From Alphaproteobacteria bacterium (GTDB lineage Bacteria; Pseudomonadota; Alphaproteobacteria; Bin95): a stretch of DNA of 41,241 nucleotides. Under the pieces are notes generated by a model, which worked only from the letters and a program-made list of their open reading frames with translations, did not search any database and was not told where the DNA came from. Location of the stretch: contig JAJDVH010000102.1 in the NCBI GenBank assembly GCA_022826185.1, positions 1 to 41,241 of the forward strand, read 5' to 3'. The translations under genes were made by a program, and so were the position numbers. This document shows positions 4,012-38,883 of the stretch, piece after piece (position 1 is the stretch's first letter; each line of letters opens with the position of its first letter).

Positions 4012-6065
4012 GGGCCGCCCTCCGAGATGAGCAGATTGCCGTAGCGGTCGGTGAGCGCGGTCTGGCCGGGAAGAAGGACGGTCGTCGAGTCCAGCTGATC
4101 GACGATGGCGGGGCCTTCGATCACATGATCGGCAAGCAAGGTCTCGCGGCGATAGGTGGGCGTCGGCCGGAGCGTGTCGCCATCGAGACAGGCCGGGCGT
4201 GCGCCCGACGGCTCGGGGCGTTCGGAGGATGCGGCGGGCAGTTCCGGCAGCGCGAACCTGTCGGTCAGGCCGGTCGCCTCGACCCGCTGATTGACGATCT
4301 CGACCGGCGCGGCGGGTTCCGAAAATGTGTAGAGCCGCTCGTGCAGCGCATGGAAGTCGGCAATGAGCGCCGCCAGCGCCTTTTCGGTAATCGGGCCGTT
4401 GCAGGGCACGGTCAGTTCCACGCCCTGCTTCTCGTAGCGCATGTCGGCCGAGCGGCGGAACCGGCGGCGCTCCGGCGGGACGCCATTGGCCTCGAGGCGA
4501 CGGTCGGCCTCATGCGTCAGCTCTGCGAACAGCGCCTCTGTGGCGGCGGCGTCGAACGCGCCCGCGCGCTGCAGGCGGGTTGCGGCAAAGTCATATCTGA
4601 GGTCCGTCGCCAGCAGGCCGATGGCGCAGAGAATGCCCGGGAAGCGCGGCACCAGCAGGCGCGCCGCCTTGAGTTCGCGCATCAGCTCCGCGCCATGGAC
4701 AGGACCGGCGCCGCCGAACGCCGCGAGCGCGAAATCGCGCGGGTCGAGGCCGCGTTCGACCGACATCACCTTCAATGCCCCGGTCATGTTGGCGTTGACG
4801 AGATCGACGATTCCCCGCGCAGCGGCGGTGAGGTCCATGCCGAGCGGTTCCGCCACATGCCGGCGGATCGCGGCCTCCGCCGCTTCCGGCGCCAGCGCCA
4901 CTTCGCCGTCGAGGAGCGCCGGCGGGATACGGCCGAGCACAAGATTGGCGTCGGATACGGTGGGGCGCGCACCGCCCTTGCCGTAGCAGGCCGGTCCCGG
5001 ATCGGCGCCGGCGCTCTCCGGCCCGACGCGGATCGCGCCCTGCTCCGTCACTGTGGCGACGGACCCGCCGCCCGCGCCGATGGTGTGAATGTCGATCATC
5101 GGGAAGGCGAGCGGGTGGTCGCCGACCCGGCCTGTAGTGGAAAGAGCGGGCTGGCCGTTCCGGATGAGCGCGACATCGGCGCTGGTGCCGCCCATGTCGA
5201 TGGTCAGCAGGTCGCCGATCCCGGCGGCCCGCCCCAGCCAGGCCGCCCCGAGCGCGCCGGCGGCGGGGCCGGAAAGCGCGAGATGCACGGCGCCGCGGGC
5301 GGCCTCCTCCGGCAGGCAGGCGCCGCCGTTCGACTTCATCAGCAACAGCGGCGCCTCGACGGCGCGGCCGGCGAGCCCGGCGGAAAGCCGGCCGATATAG
5401 CGCCTGACCACCGGCTGGACCGAGGCGTTCAGCGTCGTGGCCACGGTGCGCTCATATTCCCGGAAGACGGGGAGGACATCGACCGAAAGCGCGATTTCGA
5501 CATCCGGCAGGCTGGAGCGGAGAATCTCGCCGACCCGGCGTTCGTGGGCCCGGTTGGCGTAGGAGTGCAGCAGGACGACGGCGACCGCATCGAGGCCGGC
5601 GGCCCGAATGGCCTCGGCAGCCGCCTCGACCGCAGGCTCGTCCAGAGGCGTTGCCTCGGTTCCGTCCAGACGGATCCGGCCGGGCACCTCGAAGATGTGC
5701 CGGGCCTGGACAGGCCGCCGGGGCTTGACCCAGGAGAACAGGTTGGCCGCGCGCGGGATTTCCGCCCGGCCTATCTCCAGCACATGGCGGAACCCCTTGG
5801 TAGTGACAAGGCCGGTGCGGGCGCCCTTTCCCTCCAGAATCGCGTTGGTGACGATGGTCGAGCCGTGCAGCACGGTCGCCACCTCCGCCGGATCGACGCC
5901 GGACCGGTCCAGCATCCTGTCCACGCCGCCGAAGAACCCGTCGGCGGGCGCGCTCGGCACGGAGGGCGACTTGGCGACATGAAGCGCGCCGCCGGCGCGG
6001 TCCGCCAGGATGACGTCGGTAAAGGTGCCCCCGACATCGAGGCTGAGCGCATGGCGCGCCGTCAT
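4008..6065 (-). CDS. hyuA: Hydantoinase A/oxoprolinase family ATPase subunit 1
   Basis: This 685-aa protein has the HyuA architecture: an N-terminal actin-like ATPase domain starting DVGGTFTD (residues 10-17), a second phosphate loop DMGGTSAD (290-297), the GAGGGS loop (330-335), then the GPESAG...GPACYG block. HyuA binds ATP and activates the cyclic amide or ketone for its HyuB partner. The open frame extends 53 codons upstream, but ATG 6065 starts ten residues before the ATPase motif, as in the family, and overlaps the upstream SDR stop (ATGA). The upstream extension lies wholly inside the SDR gene. It pairs with the hyuB downstream. Confidence 0.93.
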   Translation of the reverse strand: MTARHALSLDVGGTFTDVILADRAGGALHVAKSPSVPSAPADGFFGGVDRMLDRSGVDPAEVATVLHGSTIVTNAILEGKGARTGLVTTKGFRHVLEIGRAEIPRAANLFSWVKPRRPVQARHIFEVPGRIRLDGTEATPLDEPAVEAAAEAIRAAGLDAVAVVLLHSYANRAHERRVGEILRSSLPDVEIALSVDVLPVFREYERTVATTLNASVQPVVRRYIGRLSAGLAGRAVEAPLLLMKSNGGACLPEEAARGAVHLALSGPAAGALGAAWLGRAAGIGDLLTIDMGGTSADVALIRNGQPALSTTGRVGDHPLAFPMIDIHTIGAGGGSVATVTEQGAIRVGPESAGADPGPACYGKGGARPTVSDANLVLGRIPPALLDGEVALAPEAAEAAIRRHVAEPLGMDLTAAARGIVDLVNANMTGALKVMSVERGLDPRDFALAAFGGAGPVHGAELMRELKAARLLVPRFPGILCAIGLLATDLRYDFAATRLQRAGAFDAAATEALFAELTHEADRRLEANGVPPERRRFRRSADMRYEKQGVELTVPCNGPITEKALAALIADFHALHERLYTFSEPAAPVEIVNQRVEATGLTDRFALPELPAASSERPEPSGARPACLDGDTLRPTPTYRRETLLADHVIEGPAIVDQLDSTTVLLPGQTALTDRYGNLLISEGGP

Positions 6066-17487: not shown

Positions 17488-17574
17488 CGTCATGCCCGGA
17501 CCTGTTCCGGGCATCCCCTTCCACCGCTTCCGCTGCACGGCCGCATGGATGCCCGGAACAAGTCCGGGCATGAC
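17488..17574 (-). repeat. Double-hairpin palindromic repeat, copy 2
   Basis: Hairpins at 17492-17514 and 17549-17571 use the same 9-bp arms as copy 1 (ATGCCCGGA/TCCGGGCAT). The asymmetric spacer matches the reverse complement of that in copy 1 (88-183), so this copy is inverted. It lies 46 bp after the ABC operon stop. Confidence 0.85.
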
Positions 17575-17658
17575 GGAGGGGCCGGGCCGTTGCGGCTGAC
17601 CGAATGCGGGCAATAGCATTTTGTTCGAATTATTTTCGTAATAATTCCCGATATAGGC

Positions 17659-17685
17659 TTGCGTTTTTTCAAAGTATGCTATTAT
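17659..17685 (+). promoter_or_regulatory. Promoter-like sequence of repeat element copy 1
   Basis: TTGCGT (17659-17664) and TATTAT (17680-17685) are 15 bp apart in an AT-rich patch that is rare in this GC-rich DNA. A 7-bp dyad AATTATT/AATAATT (17628-17646) lies upstream. The equivalent position in copy 2 has a better promoter (TTGACG-N16-TATATT). The 15-bp spacer is short, so this copy may be weak. Confidence 0.45.
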
Positions 17686-17993
17686 GTAAGTAGAAGGAGG
17701 CGGCTTCTGCAGGGCTGCTTCGTTTCGCGCCGGTGCGAAAAAAGAACCCAACGGAACGGACGGGCGAAGTGCGCCCTGCGCCTGCCTTGCGCGCGGGCAA
17801 TCAGGCGCGCGAACCGCGCCGGCGCCGACACCCGCCCGCGCCCGCGCGCAGGCGCCCACGCGATACGCGCGAAACAGGGTCCCGCCACAGGCGGCAGCCG
17901 GCGGGACCGAAGGATGGATCGAAAGGAGAGACCCATGCCAGGGACGCAAGGCCCGAGGGACTACCCGCAGACCCCGTTCCGAACGGCGGCCTC

Positions 17994-18041
17994 ATGCCCG
18001 AAAGGAGAACAAGCTATGCCCCAAGCACATGCCGATCATGA
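17994..18041 (+). CDS. Candidate 15-aa peptide of the repeat element, copy 1
   Basis: This 15-codon ORF reads MPERRTSYAPSTCRS. It has the same length and pattern (MPER-x3-Y-x-P-x3-RS) as the ORF at 34784-34737. Of eight shared residues, four use different synonymous codons in the two copies, which is more like a conserved peptide than a conserved DNA. A small hairpin (CCGTT 17974-17978/AACGG 17982-17986) sits just before the ATG, and the stop lies inside the ATGACAT motif. The Shine-Dalgarno is weak. Function unknown; it could be a leader peptide. Confidence 0.35.
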   Translation: MPERRTSYAPSTCRS

Positions 18042-18554
18042 CATTCCATGACATTTCGCAACGGTCCGGGGATATCGGCCATGCCGCAGACGCACTTCGC
18101 TGGCGGCGGTCGTCGATTGGAGCCTGTGCCGGCCTGCGCCGGGAATCCCCTCTCCCGCTTGCGGGGGCGGCCGGGTGGGGGCCCGCTTCCGCGCCAGCGG
18201 AAGCGGCGGGCGCAGCCCGGCAAACACCCGTCGCGCCGAGAGGCCCACCCCCGTCCCCTCCCGCCAGGCGGGAGGGGAGACAAACCGAACGCCCTCAACA
18301 TGAGACCTGACTCGCGACCGCCGGCGGAAGCTCCCGCAGCGCGCCTCCGCGACAAAAACATGACATTCCATGACATCCACGGTGGAAAGGACGGTCCCGC
18401 CGCTCTGCGCGCGGGCGCGGGCGGGCGCGCATTATGCACGCGCACGCGCGAGAAGGGGGCGTCCGGGACCAAGGGCCGAAAGGAGGATGCAGCGCCTTGC
18501 AAACGGCCGGGGCGGAGACCGGCGCGCATGACAAAACATGACATTCCATGACAT
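18037..18554 (+). repeat. Three copies of an 18-bp ATGACAT-pair motif
   Basis: CATGACATTCCATGACAT occurs exactly at 18037-18054, 18359-18376 and 18537-18554. Each is a direct repeat of ATGACAT with a 3-bp spacer, giving a 10-bp (one helical turn) period. A fourth copy with CTC in the spacer is at 34724-34741 on the minus strand. Copies 1, 3 and 4 continue with a TCGC then GGTCC block within 20 bp. The 18057-18590 stretch between and after these copies has no credible gene, only GC-rich inverted repeats (for example CCCTCTCCCGCTTGCGGGGG near 18149) and a second GGTCCC...GGGACC pairing around 18390-18475. Confidence 0.8.
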
Positions 18555-28801: not shown

Positions 28802-29911
28802 CTAAACGATCTCCACCGTGGGGAGCGCGCCTCGAATCCTCATTATAAGCACTCGACGTCCCGATTCACTTGAATAGGTGCCCGCCGCGCCTGTGCCGAC
28901 ACGCCAGAAATCGATGCCACTTACAAATTCACCTTGTGGATTATCGCCTTCGATGCTCTCCAGCGGACCCCTCAGTATTTCCGCATAAATTGTCCGGTCG
29001 GTCACAGACGGCTTCGCTAACGCCAACTGTAGAACAGTGGGAAGTAAGGCGTGAAACACGTGAACACCGACGGTTTTCTGTACGTTGAACTCCGTCGGAT
29101 TATCGTCGAAGGCATCTCGGTATATAGTCCTTATACCTTGCCAATATGCGTCCAATATCTTTAGTTTATCATCCATGCTATACCCATTGAAATTTTCTTG
29201 AGATAACGGACGTTTCAGAGAAGCTACCACAGCAGAATTTCCTATTGTCGTTCTCCCCTTTTGCTCGTTTGGGTAGCGAATTCTACCCCGCCATGCAGGA
29301 GTGTCCTTCAGTTTGTCAACGATCTGTTGACCCATTAGTTTCCAACTTTGTCCTCGTTCCTCCAACCACATCCTCATTTTTGTATCATGCTCTGCTCTCT
29401 GCTTTAGCAACACTAAAGCCAAATCTGTACTAACCGATTTAGCATTGGAATTTACGACATGAAACTGTTCCATTTCTTGACTCTCTGTTGCGCCAATCAT
29501 GCAAACGAACGGCAATTCATAATTCTCCCATTTGCTGGGATCTGCTTCAAACAGCTTACAAAGAGCATTTAGGCGATGCTGCCCATCCACAATATAGAAT
29601 GGATCATCGGAGCAAGATATAGGCAGACACAACGAACCATCGTCATTGGGAATGAGGTGACTCATATCCAAACCACGCCGATTTACGAGAATTGCGGTAG
29701 GTAAATCTACACGGTCAGCATCAATGTCTCGCGCGAGGGAATTGACCCGGGTCAAGGACGCCTCCCGCTGATACCCGACCTGTTTCCCCGATTTTCGATG
29801 AGGAATTCGGTGCGTAGTAGCCAACTGACCAATGGTGATCTTGCCAACCACAGTTGGAATTCCGCGCGTGGTGAGGCGAGGGCCTTCGATTACCTTTACG
29901 AGTGGTGTCAT
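28802..29911 (-). CDS. DGQHR-domain (DndB-like) protein
   Basis: This 369-aa protein has the DGQHR signature at residues 109-113 (VDGQHRLNAL), plus an upstream QRE (48-50) and a following NSNAKS block (near 181). The family includes DndB, linked to DNA phosphorothioate systems, and stand-alone defence-associated proteins. No dnd genes are visible here. ATG 29911 has an AAAGG site; the ATG at 30001 lies upstream within the promoter and lacks one. The gene is visibly AT-richer than its neighbours, suggesting transfer. Its own promoter and dyad lie just upstream. Confidence 0.88.
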   Translation of the reverse strand: MTPLVKVIEGPRLTTRGIPTVVGKITIGQLATTHRIPHRKSGKQVGYQREASLTRVNSLARDIDADRVDLPTAILVNRRGLDMSHLIPNDDGSLCLPISCSDDPFYIVDGQHRLNALCKLFEADPSKWENYELPFVCMIGATESQEMEQFHVVNSNAKSVSTDLALVLLKQRAEHDTKMRMWLEERGQSWKLMGQQIVDKLKDTPAWRGRIRYPNEQKGRTTIGNSAVVASLKRPLSQENFNGYSMDDKLKILDAYWQGIRTIYRDAFDDNPTEFNVQKTVGVHVFHALLPTVLQLALAKPSVTDRTIYAEILRGPLESIEGDNPQGEFVSGIDFWRVGTGAAGTYSSESGRRVLIMRIRGALPTVEIV

Positions 29912-29969
29912 GCTTTGTGCCTTTCGGTTTAGGTGCGACGACGTCGGCGAGAGTGCCGAAATCCGGTGG

Positions 29970-30023
29970 ATGCTAGCCGATTTCAGATCACGTGTCAACA
30001 TCTAGTTTTTGGAATCTGAAATC
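29970..30023 (-). promoter_or_regulatory. Sigma-70 promoter with inverted-repeat operator for the DGQHR gene
   Basis: On the minus strand TTGACA (29998-29993) and TAGCAT (29975-29970) are separated by exactly 17 bp. A perfect 10-bp inverted repeat, GATTTCAGAT (29979-29988) and ATCTGAAATC (30014-30023), places one arm in the spacer and the other upstream of the -35. This is the geometry of a repressor operator or of looping autoregulation. Confidence 0.65.
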
Positions 30024-30126: not shown

Positions 30127-30543
30127 CTACCTCGGCCTGATTAGATCTAGCTCCCAATCTGCCGCCTTCTCCAGCCTCTGCCTGACCTGCGCCAGCAGCG
30201 TCCGGACGGATGCGGCGGCGGCCTCGCGGTCCATGGATTCGGTTTCAGGATCGACGCCGGTGCAGCGGATCCGGACGGCGTAGAGGGTGTAGCGTTCGGT
30301 TTCGCGCCAGGGCTGTACATCCACGCCGCATGCGGCCAGGCGGTCCAGCAGCGTCTTGAGATCGTGGGTCAGCGGGTAAAGCTCGCCGAGCAGCGCCAGC
30401 CAGGCCTTGAACGCCTTCTCCAGCGCTTGCTGGACATGGAAGCCGAACCCTTCCTCCGGTCCTTCCGCAGCCAGAATCAGCAGCGAGCGCAAGTCTCCCT
30501 GGGAAGACCGCAGCATAAGCCGGGCGCATTTAAGGTCGCTCAT
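30127..30543 (-). CDS. HEPN-domain protein (partner of MNT)
   Basis: This 138-aa HEPN protein has the family core HVQQALEKAFKAWLALLGELYPLTHDL (spanning residues 36-62, given here by its ends HVQQ and THDL). The RNase motif R-x4-6-H of toxic HEPN proteins is not seen, so it may belong to the non-catalytic, substrate-binding type. It overlaps the MNT gene by 14 bp. The start ATG 30543 is chosen because the longer frame only reads back through the MNT gene. MNT/HEPN pairs act as toxin-antitoxin or nucleotide-modifying modules. Confidence 0.85.
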   Translation of the reverse strand: MSDLKCARLMLRSSQGDLRSLLILAAEGPEEGFGFHVQQALEKAFKAWLALLGELYPLTHDLKTLLDRLAACGVDVQPWRETERYTLYAVRIRCTGVDPETESMDREAAAASVRTLLAQVRQRLEKAADWELDLIRPR

Positions 30544-30865
30544 AGAGCACCCTGCCTTCCCGCAGCGCGCGGGCAAGAACATGATTCAGGGAATCGCGCC
30601 AGTAATCCAGTTCGGCGGTCGAAAAGACAAGTATATCTTTCGGGACGTCGAAACCGCCTGCTGCGCGGTACAGCCGGTTGGCCTCGTCGATCCGGCTCCG
30701 CCCTGGCCCGAATGGTTCGGCCTCGATGACGATCAGGTCGACGTCGGAGCGGTCGTGGGCGTCGCCACGGGCGCGAGAGCCGAACAGGATCACCTGCTCG
30801 GGATCGACCTCCTCCACGATCGCCCGGACCATCTCGTCCAGAAGCTCGTCCGTCACCAAGACCAT
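30530..30865 (-). CDS. MNT-type minimal nucleotidyltransferase
   Basis: This 111-aa protein has the pol-beta nucleotidyltransferase signature GSRARGD (residues 29-35) followed by DVD (41-43), the metal-binding Asp pair. In MNT/HEPN modules the MNT protein AMPylates or otherwise neutralises its HEPN partner. ATG 30865 has an AGGAGGG ribosome-binding site; the longer frame to 30982 is not needed. It is transcribed ahead of the HEPN gene and overlaps it. It diverges from the MFS gene over 115 bp. Confidence 0.88.
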   Translation of the reverse strand: MVLVTDELLDEMVRAIVEEVDPEQVILFGSRARGDAHDRSDVDLIVIEAEPFGPGRSRIDEANRLYRAAGGFDVPKDILVFSTAELDYWRDSLNHVLARALREGRVLYERP

Positions 30866-30980
30866 CGCCCCTCCTTGCCGGAGAATGATGCCGGTGGCGG
30901 GCGGGGCCGGCAAGCGGCGGCTGTTCCGTCTTCGCGCGGCGGCAGGCATATTGGGCGACGGCGCGGACGGGGATTCGGAC

Positions 30981-32105
30981 ATGGCGCATACTGCGGAGGC
31001 AGGAGTCGCAGCCGGGGAAACCCGGACGCTGGCGCTGATCGGCGCCGGACATTTCCTCAGCCATTTCTACGCGCTCACCCTGCCGCCGCTGTTTTTCTTC
31101 TTCCGGGAGGAATTCGGCGCCAGCTATGCGCTGCTGGGCGCGCGGCCGGTGCTGCTGGCGGGCCTCGCGCTCAACGCCGCCGCCATCGCCGCCATCGGGC
31201 TCGTCTCCAGCTACTGGATGCTGGCGCTGCTGGCCGTGGCGGCGGGCATCGGCAACAGCGTGTTTCACCCGGCCGACTATGCGGTGCTGGCGGCGCGCAT
31301 AAGGGAGCGGCGGCTGCCGCGCGCCTACAGCCTGCACACCTTTCTCGGTTTCTTCGGCACCGCGGTGGCGCCGCTCACCGTGGCGGCGCTGGCCCAGTGG
31401 ATGGGCTGGCGCAGCGCGGTCATGCTGGTCGGCGCGGTGGGTATTGCGACCGTGCTGACCATGGCGGCAAGCGGTGCAGCGGTTGCGTCTCCGCCGCGCC
31501 CGAAAGATGCAGCCAACGCCATGTCGGCTCGGCGCCATTCCCTGCCGATCCTGCTGTTTTTCGGCTTCTTTGCGGCCTACGGCATGGCGAGCGGCGGCAT
31601 CATGGCGTTTACGGTGATCGGTCTCGGCAAGCTTTACGGCCTCGACCCGGCATCGGCCGGCGCGGTGCTGACCGCGTGCCTGCTCGCACTGGCCTTCGGC
31701 ATCCTCGCCGGCGGCGAGCTGCCCGACCGCGAAAGGCTGCAGGTGCGCCTGACCGGCGCGGCGCTGGTCGGCGGCGGCGCGCTGACGGCGCTGGCGGGCT
31801 TCGCGGATATCGGCGCCGTCGGCCTTGCCGTGCTGCTGGGCGCGGCCGGCTTCGGGATGGGCCTCGTGCTGCCGGCGCGCGACCTGATGCTTCGGCGCAT
31901 CACGCCGCCCGGCAGCACCGGCCGGGTGATCGGTTTCGTATTTGTCGGACTTTCCGTCGGCGGCGGCCTCGCGCCGCTGCTGTTCGGCTGGACGATGGAC
32001 CGCGACTGGCCGATCCTGCTGTTCCTCGGCTGCGGCGTGTTCCTCGTCCTCGCCTTCCTCTGCTCCTTCGGCGCGGTGCTCGCCGCCCGGCGCAAGACAG
32101 GCTGA
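30981..32105 (+). CDS. MFS transporter
   Basis: This 374-aa inner-membrane protein has 11-12 predicted segments in two halves joined near residues 165-180 by a loop rich in Pro, Lys and Ala. The N-terminal GHFLSHFYALTLPPLFFFF and the HPADYAVLAARI block (near 95) resemble the fosmidomycin-resistance-like MFS group (GHFxxHxY). It is probably a proton-driven exporter of a small molecule. It is slightly short for the superfamily. ATG 30981 follows a GGGGATTCGG stretch with only a weak ribosome-binding site. Confidence 0.85.
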   Translation: MAHTAEAGVAAGETRTLALIGAGHFLSHFYALTLPPLFFFFREEFGASYALLGARPVLLAGLALNAAAIAAIGLVSSYWMLALLAVAAGIGNSVFHPADYAVLAARIRERRLPRAYSLHTFLGFFGTAVAPLTVAALAQWMGWRSAVMLVGAVGIATVLTMAASGAAVASPPRPKDAANAMSARRHSLPILLFFGFFAAYGMASGGIMAFTVIGLGKLYGLDPASAGAVLTACLLALAFGILAGGELPDRERLQVRLTGAALVGGGALTALAGFADIGAVGLAVLLGAAGFGMGLVLPARDLMLRRITPPGSTGRVIGFVFVGLSVGGGLAPLLFGWTMDRDWPILLFLGCGVFLVLAFLCSFGAVLAARRKTG

Positions 32106-33824: not shown

Positions 33825-34277
33825 TCAGTCCTCGGCAATGTCTTCCGCCCAGAGTTCGGGCCGTTCCTCGATGAACCGGGTCATCAGCGCGGTGCAGTCC
33901 GGATCGTCGGCGACGACCACCTCGACGCCGCGCTCGCGCAGGAACGCCTCATTGCCGCCGAAATTCGTGTTCTCGGCGATGACGACGCGCGGTATGCCGA
34001 ACTGGACGATGGCGCCTGAACACATCATGCAGGGGGAGAGCGAGGTATAGAGGGTCGTGTCGCGCCAGGTCCGCTGGCGGCCCGCCCTGCGCAGCGCGTC
34101 CATCTCGCCATGCGCGATGGGGTCGCCCTGTTGCACGCGCCGGTTCCGGCCCCGCGAGACCACCGTGTCGCCGCGCGCGAGAACCGCACCGATGGGGCAA
34201 CCGCCCTCCTCGAACCCGGTTCTGGCTTCCTCATAGGCGATGCGCAGCATCCGGCGGTCGGTGTCGGTCAGGCTCAT
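33825..34277 (-). CDS. Cytosine deaminase, Fcy1-like
   Basis: This 150-aa zinc hydrolase has the motif HGE (residues 56-58) and PCMMC (82-86). It closely follows the yeast cytosine deaminase pattern: GCPIG near 26, DTTLYTSLSPC near 73, the GIPRVVIAEN block near 94, and the C-terminal FIEERPELWAEDI. It should convert cytosine or a similar ring amine to the keto form with release of ammonia. Its start overlaps the end of the deacetylase remnant (ATGA), a sign of a former operon. It may act on creatinine-like or modified pyrimidine rings, which would fit the hydantoin theme. Confidence 0.85.
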   Translation of the reverse strand: MSLTDTDRRMLRIAYEEARTGFEEGGCPIGAVLARGDTVVSRGRNRRVQQGDPIAHGEMDALRRAGRQRTWRDTTLYTSLSPCMMCSGAIVQFGIPRVVIAENTNFGGNEAFLRERGVEVVVADDPDCTALMTRFIEERPELWAEDIAED

Positions 34278-34705
34278 CTCTGCGGTCCTCGATAGTAGGG
34301 AAGCCGTTCGGTTCGGATCTCGTGCCCCTCGGCGGAAAGGGTGTCCAGATGATCGGCGATATCCTCAAGCCGCGCGAGCCAGACCTTGCGGGCCGCCATG
34401 GTCTCCTCGAGCCAGCGCTCGACCAGCCGCCAGCGGGCCAGCCGGCCGGTCAGGAACGGGTGGAGGATCAACATGAAGAAACCGCCGGCCTCATACTGCG
34501 CCTCGAACTCCTCCCAGAAACCCGCCAGCCCCGCGGACGGTCCGCGCACCGGCATCATGTAGCCGATTTCGTCATAGTGCGCGAAGGGCGGCCAGTCGTC
34601 GGCGCCCCAGTGGACGGGCATCTCCCAGAGCGCGCCCTCGGCGGTCGCCAGCCGGTAGGGAATGTCGTCCGCCATCAGGGAGCTGTCATAGCGGAGCCCG
34701 TGACG
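34274..34705 (-). pseudogene. 5'-truncated polysaccharide deacetylase
   Basis: The frame from ATG 34675 gives 133 aa. In-frame codons upstream (RHGLRYDSSL, to 34705) still match the intact deacetylase at 18593-19513 around its residue 180. Homology stops at about 34705, where a sequence shared with the repeat end motif begins. The missing half contained the Asp pair and the HxxxH metal site, so the product cannot be catalytic. The retained part matches LMADD, the Phe-Glu block before HP and the C-terminal tail. It overlaps the cytosine deaminase start, so the complete gene was probably the first of a two-gene unit. Confidence 0.85.
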
Positions 34706-34736
34706 GACAGGACCCCCGGCGATATGTCATGAGATG

Positions 34737-34784
34737 TCATGATCTGTATGCGCGCGGCACATATCCGATTGCCCGTTCAGGCAT
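34737..34784 (-). CDS. Candidate 15-aa peptide of the repeat element, copy 2
   Basis: This 15-codon ORF reads MPERAIGYVPRAYRS, matching the length and fixed residues of the ORF at 17994-18041. Codons for P2, R4, P10 and R14 differ synonymously between copies. It starts 4 nt after a stable GCAA-loop hairpin and stops inside the ATGACAT motif. A longer frame, open from 35285, reads through the GC-rich block, but its register is not conserved in copy 1. Peptide coding is unproven. Confidence 0.35.
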   Translation of the reverse strand: MPERAIGYVPRAYRS

Positions 34785-35107
34785 AAAGCTGCCCTTGCGG
34801 GCAGGGACCCCGGCTATCCATTCCAGCCTCCATACATCGCATCTTCGGCATGTTCCCGTTCTCCCTTCTGTGTCCACTTCGTTCTGTTCCCCCGCCGCCG
34901 GCCTGGCTGTGGCGGAACCCTTTTCCGCGCGTATCGCGCGCGCCTGCGCGCGGGCCCGGGCGGGCGTTTCGCGCCGGCGCGGTTCACGCGCCTGATTGCG
35001 CGCGCGAGTCAACGGACACACCTCTCCCGTCGGTTTCTCAGGGTCTTTTTCGCGCCGGCGCCGACGCGGAAGACGAAGCGGCTTCCGGATACCGCCCCTC
35101 CTGACCC

Positions 35108-35135
35108 AATATAGGCCACGATCGTCCATCGTCAA
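35108..35135 (-). promoter_or_regulatory. Promoter of repeat element copy 2
   Basis: On the minus strand TTGACG (35135-35130) and TATATT (35113-35108) are 16 bp apart. This is a good sigma-70-type promoter, placed about 60 bp inside the 5' border of the element and pointing into it. Its position matches the promoter-like pair in copy 1, so transcription looks like a conserved property of the element. Confidence 0.6.
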
Positions 35136-35313
35136 ACCCGCATGGGGAATTATTTCAAATTTTACGAACAAAACTCCTTCTTCGAGTCTGCCGTCCTGCC
35201 GCCAATTGTTCACCCCCGGAGTCCGGCTCACCGGGCGCCCGGGGACGAGCGCCGCGGCGTCAATGCGGCCATGCCGGCCTTGCATCGATCCTTTTCAGAA
35301 CGCAGACTGACTC

Positions 35314-35452
35314 TTGCAATCACTGAACGAGGCTTCCCGCTCTGTCGGGTCGCCCGCTGAATAGAACAGCCGACACCCGGCGAGGGAGTAGCTACCCGAG
35401 CCCGGCGAATAGGTGGGGTCTCTCACGACTTAGCCTCGTGCAGTGATTGCAA
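35314..35452 (+). ncRNA. Candidate structured leader RNA before the OMP gene
   Basis: TTGCAATCACTG (35314-35325) pairs perfectly with CAGTGATTGCAA (35441-35452), continued by CGAGGC (35328-35333) with GCCTCG (35433-35438). Inside are a hairpin CCCG/CGGG (35336-35349), a bulged stem TGTCG...GCTG/CAGC...CGACA (about 35343-35375), and two near-identical 13-mers GCCCG(CT/GC)GAATAG (35352-35364 and 35400-35412). The form is that of a multi-branched RNA domain closed by a long stem. It ends 48 bp before the start of the OMP gene. It matches no riboswitch class I can name. A small inverted-repeat element (MITE) is the main alternative. Confidence 0.5.
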
Positions 35453-35490
35453 CGGCCCGGCACCAGCCGGCGCCGTGTTCTGCAACACGG
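35453..35490 (+). promoter_or_regulatory. Overlapping hairpins masking the OMP ribosome-binding site
   Basis: Hairpin 1: CGGC-CCGGC (35453-35461) with GCCGG...GCCG (35466-35475). Hairpin 2: CCGTGTT (35473-35479) with AACACGG (35484-35490), 4-nt loop. They share 35473-35475, so only one can form fully. Hairpin 2 covers the first two bases of the GGAGA ribosome-binding site (35489-35493), 7 nt before ATG 35501. This is the layout of a translational switch. Confidence 0.5.
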
Positions 35491-36718: not shown

Positions 36719-37213
36719 CTAACGCAAAGCTCTAGGATTCAACTCAGCTTGCGTACCCTTCATCCTCCGCAACCATTGACGAAATTCCTGAATTACACCT
36801 TCCTCCTTCGCAGCAGCATCCCCAATCACTAATATCAACCCTTCCTCCAATGCCCTCTCGACTTCGCCTTCCAGCGCCGCCCATTGCCCACTTCCCCTTT
36901 TTCCGACCAACGCCATCCCGTACTCCACATATCGAATATTGTTCGAAAACAAATAAGAGATAACCTGCTTATGCACAAATCTTGGCCGGTAAAAAACTGC
37001 CGGTGTTCTAAGATCTACTACCGTCCTAACTGAGTTTGCTACTAGGGTGCGCTTAAATTTTTCCTCATCAAGGTCACCCAATTCTATAACCACAAACTTT
37101 CCCTTCCCAGTCTCTCCATACATAAATAGCGCTGTTTCCTTCTTTCTCCATTCGTCCGTCTCCTCCATTCCGCGCACTTTACTCTTGGGAAATCTTTTTA
37201 CATTTGCTGTCAT
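36719..37213 (-). CDS. Small partner of the dCTP deaminase (DUF488-like)
   Basis: This 164-aa protein is not recognised with certainty. Residues 38-108 resemble the DUF488 pattern: a beta-strand VVIELGDL, helix, strand RTVVDLRTP, the RP-x-F segment, and IRYVEYGMALVGKRG. The C-terminal half (ALEEGLILVIGDAAAKEEGV) fits the family's second strand and helix but lacks its Cys. The N-terminus is basic (KRFPKSKVRG). Its start overlaps the dCTP deaminase stop (ATGA), so it is translated with it. Codon use is AT-richer than the surroundings. It may be an accessory or immunity factor of the defence gene. Confidence 0.6.
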   Translation of the reverse strand: MTANVKRFPKSKVRGMEETDEWRKKETALFMYGETGKGKFVVIELGDLDEEKFKRTLVANSVRTVVDLRTPAVFYRPRFVHKQVISYLFSNNIRYVEYGMALVGKRGSGQWAALEGEVERALEEGLILVIGDAAAKEEGVIQEFRQWLRRMKGTQAELNPRALR

Positions 37214-38883
37214 CGCTCTACCGCCCCTTCGAAAAGTTGAACTGCCCCTTCTTCAACCATGAGCAAATCCCTTATCCTAACAGCATGCACCGGATATCCT
37301 CCTTCGGGCTCCACATAAGCTCCCGTACCATCCTTAACTTCCCCCCTTTTTCGAAAGAAATCATCATACATTCTCGGACCTACCCCGGTAAATGGCAAAA
37401 TCCTCATCCGATACTCCGATTGTCTCTGTATGCCCGCGCTTCTTTCCTCTGTGACGATTGAATCATAATGCAACTCTGCCGCCAAACTTTTCACATACGG
37501 TTCGATATACCTGACTTCGCCTACCCCCGCTGTCACCAAGTGCCTAGCGCAATTGTGGCAAGGATACGTTGTCGTAAACAACGTCGCACCAACCGCCGAT
37601 ATGCCGTACCTTGCCGCAGACAATAGTGCATTCATCTCCGCATGGATGGAACGGGAATACTCGATTATATCGCCAATTCCCGGTAGTCCGTCCAATCGAT
37701 CTTTACCCTCCGAAAAAATCTTTCTAATCTTTCCCTCTGCATCCGTTCTACTGCTTTCCTCGATATCCATCTGTCCATCCAATTTTGGATACACTACTGC
37801 AGCTAGCTCGCTCGCAAACTCCATTGCCAGCCATTCCGCAATCTCTCCCCTTAGCTTGTTCTTTTTTCTCTGATTGTGGCATCCCACAAACTGCTCATTA
37901 GCGTAATCCCATTCCCATGCGAAGCATCTATTATCAGGAGTGCTATCCTCATCATAAACACCACCACCGTACTTTGGCACATCGTTAGTGCCTGTGGATA
38001 CCACAGTGCCATCTTCCTTCATCAATGCAGCTCCGACCTGTCGAGACAAACACGCGGACTGCAATGACGCGGTATGGGCATGATACATCGCCCGTTCATG
38101 TTGATTAGGTCGCACTAAACTCGAACCTAAAATTAAGTTTACAAATCGCTGCAAGTCTTCGGTCAGGTTTTCACCAGTTTCTGATGGTAAATTATTGTCT
38201 ACAAAGAAATCTGCTTGATAAAATGCCTCTCTAACCTGCTGACCATGAGGATTTTGATGATCTTTCTCATCTCTCTCCATGTATTTCAAAACATCTTCTG
38301 ATGATACGCCTGCGTATTTTTTTGTCTCTGTCGGCTCACCAATAAGCCGTTCTTGTCTTTTTTCTTTTTCGCAATGAATTGCAACAAGGCGGAATGATTT
38401 ATCATACACCTTGCGTAGCATATCTACTTCTTCGTAATGCTTTATGGAATCAAGCAGAAACGCAAACTTATTTTTCCCAGGTTCATTTCCACCTCGCAAT
38501 TCTTTAATCTTCTGAATTGCCATTAATGCAACCGCTGAATTTCCATATCTTTGTCGAATATTATCTCCAATATCTTGAAGCCTTTGTGCTCGGGAAAATC
38601 GTTTCTTTCCAACATCAATGCTGCGTTCATGTTCGTTAGAGTCAGCCGACGGAAGGTGGTGCTCTAGAAGGGAGCTCAATTTAACCACAAAAACTTCATA
38701 ACCCTTAACTTCGAAAAGAGTCTGTAGGCGTTTAGCAACTGCAGAGCAACCGCTTCCGGCATAGCCAACGAAGCCTATTACAACTTCTTTCGAAAGTGGT
38801 GAAACGTCGGTTTCTTGATAAATGCGATATTCTTCGTTGTCGTTGGTATCGGGTAATGATTGCGAAGTAGGTAAACGAACCAT
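37210..38883 (-). CDS. avcD: Anti-phage dCTP deaminase, AvcD type (kinase-deaminase fusion)
   Basis: This 557-aa protein has an N-terminal P-loop kinase-like domain (Walker A G40-x2-GSGCS47; domain about 32-250) fused to a zinc deoxycytidylate deaminase domain (about 262-515) with HAE (414-416) and PCHNC (441-445). This architecture and length are those of AvcD/dCTP-deaminase defence proteins, which drain dCTP/dCMP during phage infection. The C-terminal PF-x-GV-x-PR-x-YDDFF segment is also typical. ATG 38883 has a TTAGGA site. The gene is clearly AT-richer than its neighbours and sits between an IS remnant and the hfl operon. Known systems of this type can be held off by an upstream RNA. Confidence 0.88.
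   Translation of the reverse strand: MVRLPTSQSLPDTNDNEEYRIYQETDVSPLSKEVVIGFVGYAGSGCSAVAKRLQTLFEVKGYEVFVVKLSSLLEHHLPSADSNEHERSIDVGKKRFSRAQRLQDIGDNIRQRYGNSAVALMAIQKIKELRGGNEPGKNKFAFLLDSIKHYEEVDMLRKVYDKSFRLVAIHCEKEKRQERLIGEPTETKKYAGVSSEDVLKYMERDEKDHQNPHGQQVREAFYQADFFVDNNLPSETGENLTEDLQRFVNLILGSSLVRPNQHERAMYHAHTASLQSACLSRQVGAALMKEDGTVVSTGTNDVPKYGGGVYDEDSTPDNRCFAWEWDYANEQFVGCHNQRKKNKLRGEIAEWLAMEFASELAAVVYPKLDGQMDIEESSRTDAEGKIRKIFSEGKDRLDGLPGIGDIIEYSRSIHAEMNALLSAARYGISAVGATLFTTTYPCHNCARHLVTAGVGEVRYIEPYVKSLAAELHYDSIVTEERSAGIQRQSEYRMRILPFTGVGPRMYDDFFRKRGEVKDGTGAYVEPEGGYPVHAVRIRDLLMVEEGAVQLFEGAVER

Follow-up and report, generated by a model that had tools for sequence, protein, structure and literature searches.

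Two repeat copies in an alphaproteobacterial contig as probable deletion derivatives of a dispersed element with a TerS-like gene and phased iterons

RAYTs belong to the Y1-type transposases and REPINs consist of short palindromes in pairs, while PICIs are single islands of 10-15 kb with integrase and replication genes. The REPIN/RAYT system (PMC3116915) resembles the repeats described here in having hundreds of short non-autonomous copies per genome and a partner protein gene tied to the repeat, and PICI/SaPI satellites (PMC6092414, PMC5052747) resemble them in being mobile DNA that carries a terminase small subunit (TerS) gene without a large terminase. The TerS proteins of SPP1 and SF6, with their pac sites (PDB 2cmp, 4zc3, 3zqp; PMC4737164), belong to the same helix-turn-helix (HTH) family as the protein of our repeats, and direct repeats are likewise located at the TerS gene here. 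The way in which TerS proteins recognize DNA is an open question because the SF6 TerS domain has almost no DNA sequence preference (PMC4737164).

Our analysis concerns two stretches of a 41,241-nucleotide window (contig JAJDVH010000102.1). Probably both derive by internal deletion from a dispersed mobile element whose spread lies within a single alphaproteobacterial genus; they would be non-autonomous, with a TerS-like protein acting on their iterons in trans.

The two copies and their family

An initial annotation had described a duplicated element at 17619-18054 (+) and 34724-35173 (-), and the two stretches do align there, with 79% mean column identity over 573 columns and an identical block order (Table 1). 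Read 5' to 3', the element comprises an AT-rich stretch, a sigma70-like promoter, a GC hairpin and a leader with a near-invariant core, followed by a Shine-Dalgarno sequence and start codon, a variable middle and two to four direct repeats CATGACANNN, the iterons. The promoter, recurrent in 55 copies, is commonly TTGACA-15 bp-TAGAAT or TATGAT. Its position, and the small hairpins that the annotation had found constant in place and variable in sequence, are real and were seen again in other copies.

Table 1. Features of the two copies and their surroundings, in window coordinates
Feature	Position	Strand	Evidence or remark
Element copy 1, internally deleted, 459 bp	17612..18070	+	Edge information profiles (101 left, 119 right) and blastn family
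Copy 1 sigma70-like promoter, TTGCGT-15 bp-TATTAT (elsewhere TTGACA/TAGAAT)	17659..17685	+	Recurs in 55 copies
Copy 1 first leader hairpin, directly after promoter	17697..17735	+	Fold
Copy 1 leader core, near-invariant, CAATCAGGCGCGCGAACCGCGCCGGCGC	17798..17825	+	Core search and alignment
Copy 1 short ORF, 38 codons, MPGTQGP...DHDIP*, Shine-Dalgarno before it, stop inside iterons; a remnant, not conserved	17935..18051	+	
Copy 1 iteron array, 2 CATGACA, 10 bp apart	18037..18053	+	
Additional iteron array 3' of copy 1; left over from a partial element	18359..18375	+	Orthologous locus L093: one array here vs two
Additional iteron array CATGACAAAACATGACATTCCATGACA, repeats at 18527/18537/18547	18527..18553	+	
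Polysaccharide deacetylase gene, C-terminal part, cut at copy 2 3' end	34274..34707	-	Intact gene in five sister species
Element copy 2, internally deleted, 475 bp, reads right to left	34708..35182	-	Alignment and edge profiles
Copy 2 iteron array, 2 CATGACA	34725..34741	-	
Copy 2 leader core	34971..34998	-	Alignment and core search

Copies were gathered by searching the source genome (4.48 Mb in 279 contigs) and its relatives, as the initial annotation had proposed, and the pair proved to belong to a large family. A blastn search with copy 1 returned 67 matching pieces from the source genome, non-self copies reaching E values as low as 1e-120, far beyond chance. The 28-bp core CAATCAGGNGCGNGAACCGCGCCGGCGC, with at most two mismatches, occurs 110 times there, and six further species have it 68, 81, 61, 78, 26 and 58 times, for a family total of ∼480 copies in seven of the eight species of one uncultured alphaproteobacterial genus. 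No occurrence was found in the eighth species (G001, rated 100% complete) or in any of 182 other alphaproteobacteria; as a control, the core read in reverse gave 0 in every genome searched, the source genome included. The pair CATGACA-N3-CATGACA was found 259 times in the source genome (control 0).

The annotation knew no named family with this layout, and neither Rfam (0 matches in the window above gathering score) nor collections of 72,556 plasmids and 50,697 phages (no DNA match) supplied one. Among the matches listed, all exact matches in public genome records were to alphaproteobacterial MAGs. Viral spread of the leader was rejected, the core giving 0 matches in IMG/VR. Such elements are undescribed in the works that our literature search covered, subscription papers lying mostly outside that coverage. 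The family is a previously undescribed one of jumping-gene-like repeats, with ∼110 copies in this bacterium.

Both ends of the element are sharp. On the left, information content begins abruptly 47 bp 5' of the -35 hexamer and is near zero further out (101 copies), and on the right it stops ∼17 bp past the last CATGACA (119 arrays). The left edge reads TT..AAAA and is AT-rich, and the right edge reads CGCRGGGGTCC; by direct reading of the profiles the edges are not complementary, and no terminal inverted repeats were seen. Nor was a target-site duplication detected (k-mers shared across the edges were hardly longer than after shuffling, averaging 5.79 as against 5.61, with a highest shuffle of 5.78). 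In the deletion copies the gene is lost, while the leader and the two ends are retained.

Gaps between neighbouring iterons measure 9-11 bp (n = 340), 19-22 bp (n = 29), 29-33 bp (n = 25) or 40-45 bp (n = 5), with six elsewhere, so that helical phase is kept by 399 of the 405 gaps of no more than 45 bp, although these counts are not independent events because the copies are related by descent. This is the pattern that one-sided protein binding to the double helix would require. We rejected a translational stop in three frames as the cause of the 10-bp spacing, since the gaps of 21, 31-33 and 40-45 bp fit helical turns; such a stop is possibly a side effect of the spacing. Triple CATGACA arrays with 10-bp spacing were also seen on three phage contigs (L135 11226-11252, L138 885-911 and L139 reverse 4489-4515), two of them where an excisionase-like or integrase gene ends.

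The full-length copy and its TerS-like gene

Full-length copies, found in sister species, are ∼1.35 kb long and have a single gene between the leader and the iteron array; in the copies read, no transposase lies between the ends. In L078 (JAJECZ010000234.1), a 326-codon gene is enclosed by a leader and iterons like those of the deletion copies. A gene fragment from the source genome (P0001, locus L021) matched Pfam Terminase_2 above the cut-off (E 3.6e-10), and the full protein (P0002) matched PHROG 51, terminase small subunit (E 7.5e-13), and the HTH of SF6/SPP1 TerS in PDB (E 0.005); the N-terminal HTH of the Terminase_2 family is present in it. The ORF ends in MTQHDIS, PDHDKT or PGHDIA, its closing codons being the iterons themselves and its stop codon lying within a repeat. 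Because dN/dS is ∼0.3 overall and mostly 0.1-0.2 over the first 115 aligned codons (the HTH region), as calculated from nine full or near-full copies of four species, several from one genome, the protein is maintained by purifying selection.

The species with TerS-like proteins at E below 1e-20 are precisely the seven in which leaders and triple iterons occur; the proteins are absent from the other 88 genomes searched, G001 included, and G001 also lacks triple iterons. In the source genome no intact TerS gene is assembled; there are fragments, some of which lie where contigs end, and this is what a repeated gene that breaks assembly would lead one to expect. The single-sequence AlphaFold model of the protein was of poor confidence (pLDDT 48.8), too poor for a structure search. 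A conserved short ORF in the deletion copies was also rejected, as the sequences differ and their stop codons occur in each of the three frames of the array (29/25/16). Copy number, iterons and the TerS gene, which the initial annotation could not see, point to a mobile-element family.

Probable insertion sites, neighbouring repeats and the leader

From the dispersal of the copies, their sharp ends and empty sites in relatives we infer that they have inserted. At the site of copy 1, the two flanking genes are ∼20 bp apart in another species (L065), as against 1.15 kb of repeats, copy 1 included, in the window, and the element site L225 in G006 measures 668 bp as against a 23-bp gap in the copy-free G001; at single sites deletion instead of insertion is conceivable, because the species compared are 5-20% diverged. 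Divergence was too great to give exact insertion edges in two comparisons involving two arrays (L040/G001 and L012/G001). At the 3' end of copy 2, homology to the intact deacetylase gene of five sister species stops at 34707/34708, which coincides with the family-wide 3' end, the exact junction base being uncertain because a few bases of microhomology (TCCG) lie there. In the sister species G003, the counterpart of copy 2 is 98% identical and has the same left flank and a different right flank from ∼34707/34708. Because of this difference in the right flank, it is unproven that copy 2 inserted cleanly into the deacetylase gene; a rearrangement at the 3' edge of the element fits better.

Other repeats are found in the same loci. 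One is dispersed and occurs in the window at 94-181 and 17488-17575 as an inverted repeat CGTCATGCCCGGACTTGTTCCGGGCATCC whose arms enclose 30 bp; these two copies are 93% complementary, and many of the fetched loci have the repeat as well. An ordinary MITE of 309 bp, with the terminal inverted repeats ACGGCTGTCCGGTTTAG / CTAAACCGGACAGCCGT and an 8-bp duplication GAACAAGT on its flanks, is present in one species and missing from another (L020 197-504 vs L121 1546). A short repeat (ATACC...CGGTCGTTGACC ... GAGTCCCAAGTCGAGGCCGTTGGTAT; L009 1274-1459 vs L097 1669) is inserted within a copy of the TerS-family element. At 35265-35475 of the window, 5' of an outer-membrane protein gene, lies a repeat with matching ends TTGCAATCACTG / CAGTGATTGCAA, of which members of the genus have several copies, including G001, which is without the main element. 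The window further contains a GC-poor island (28802-30001, -) that is missing at the same place in G001 and whose ORF matches the DNA modification-associated DndB/DpdB, adjacent HEPN and nucleotidyltransferase ORFs (30127-30982, -) in the layout of a HEPN/MNT toxin-antitoxin, and a GC-poor gene (37210-38883, -) that matches an anti-phage dCTP deaminase model (PADLOC dCTPase, E 4.6e-154).

The initial annotation had taken the duplicate for a transcribed RNA element, and part of this holds: because the promoter recurs, the leader is probably transcribed, and its core lies in mixed reading frames. The distances from GTGCG to the core (87/15/13 by frame) and from the core to GAAACAGGG (47/27/17) fall in all frames, and we therefore rejected a conserved peptide in the leader. 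The folding and covariation signals are weak. Two of four window segments folded no better than shuffles and two were marginal (z +0.40 to -2.22), and the first hairpin, which keeps its place with differing sequences in other copies, has a mean z of -1.3. The core hairpin, compared in 51 copies, varies almost only by one-sided C-to-U changes, plus one mismatch, and has no two-sided changes; a closing stem around it was not supported (G-G at one pair in 17 of 51 copies). Over 96 copies the arms of the terminal hairpin paired with their own partners slightly better than with shuffled ones (6.55 vs 6.36). This is the hairpin in whose stem GTCCC/GGGAC was said to be replaced by a compensated GTTCC/GGAAC; the two copies do differ in this way, but a GG bulge is needed for copy 2 to pair, and the hairpin belongs to one subfamily. 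The structured-RNA reading is thus only partly supported, the evidence not favoring an element that is chiefly an RNA gene, and an RNA role within the life cycle of the element is possible.

Explanations and relation to known systems

The dispersed mobile element that we favor has its basis in copy number, sharp ends and internal deletion, in the finding of leader, iterons and TerS gene together, in purifying selection and helical phasing, and in sites that lack the copy in relatives. Weighing against it, transposase, integrase and nuclease genes are all missing from the element, no target-site duplication was detected, the AT-rich left end does not mirror the right end (GGGGTCC), and the TerS gene is assembled only as fragments in the source genome. 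Beyond these observations, we infer mobility, and also that iterons in every copy are bound by the TerS-like protein. The master copy is a ∼1.35-kb unit in which an AT-rich 5' end, a strong promoter and a leader of ∼250 nt precede a solitary TerS-like gene, followed by 2-4 CATGACA iterons on one helix face and a G-rich 3' end. Its protein would bind the iterons of the copy that encodes it and of others as well, and build a ring or filament marking the 3' end of the element, much as TerS proteins act at the start of genome packaging. This complex might then recruit a host or phage nuclease or recombinase, so that any copy with both of these ends could be mobilized. Only tentatively do we propose the stronger version, which we doubt somewhat more than we believe: a new class of mobile DNA with no transposase of its own, in which a TerS-like protein would read phased 3' iterons in the manner of a packaging initiator and direct the cutting and transfer of any copy that has both ends.

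An unlikely alternative is a minimal phage satellite, whose TerS-like gene and pac-like iterons would steer the packaging motor of a helper phage, with dispersal by transduction and recombination. The homology to SPP1/SF6 TerS, the location of the repeats at the TerS gene itself, just as in SPP1 the pac site extends over the start of that gene (PMC4737164), and the triple CATGACA arrays near phage genes on three phage contigs would all agree with it. However, neither a large terminase (PF03237, PF03354; Terminase_6N, TerL_ATPase) nor the GTA marker GTA_TIM (PF13547), for which a Caulobacter control genome was positive, was found in the source genome, and each large-terminase family was matched in only one other member of the genus. 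It is mainly because most of these genomes are without large terminases that we rate a satellite low; hundreds of sharp-ended copies also suit transposition better, and the SF6 DNA-binding domain does not specifically read the repeats of its own phage (PMC4737164). Hijacking of a GTA was rejected, the source genome being without the marker.

Repetition of a regulatory or housekeeping RNA for gene control is improbable. The recurrence of a strong promoter and first hairpin and the near-invariant core in mixed frames are what such a family would show, but the folding signal is weak, the core hairpin is without two-sided covariation, the terminal hairpin is confined to one subfamily, the TerS gene and iterons would go unexplained, and the repeats are absent from a complete genome of the same genus (G001). 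Least probable of all are MITEs of an ordinary unrecognized insertion sequence with the TerS-like gene as passenger or regulator. Dispersal, internal deletion and precise ends would fit MITEs, and other MITE families share these loci. Against this, no inverted repeats or target duplication were seen at the ends, the TerS gene is under selection and has its stop codon in the iterons, and no fetched locus contained a larger transposase-bearing element with the same ends.

If the mobile-element reading is true, a protein that initiates packaging in viruses now serves a successful genomic parasite as its DNA-binding part, with recognition site and gene fused in one small unit. Another protein type would then join the few known to drive bacterial repeat families, and TerS DNA reading could be approached in a simple system with hundreds of natural candidate binding-site arrays.

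Among known systems, the chromids of Skermanella (L145-L147), likewise an alphaproteobacterium, have several lone Terminase_2 genes per replicon, two of them (L146, L147) with ATGAC repeats ∼10-11 bp apart near the 3' end. However, their proteins are only 25-29% identical to ours and CATGACA iterons are lacking; they may be distant cousins and serve as a lead only. The SPP1 repeats lie at the start of the TerS gene and act together with a large terminase, whereas ours lie at the gene end, are phased at 10 bp and stand in a genome in which no large terminase was found. REPIN/RAYT is nearest in population structure, but the partner here is TerS-like, and the copies, of ∼450 bp, contain a promoter, leader and iterons. 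PICIs are nearest in carrying TerS (PMC6092414); by comparison, the elements described here measure 0.45-1.35 kb, carry one gene and number ∼100 copies.
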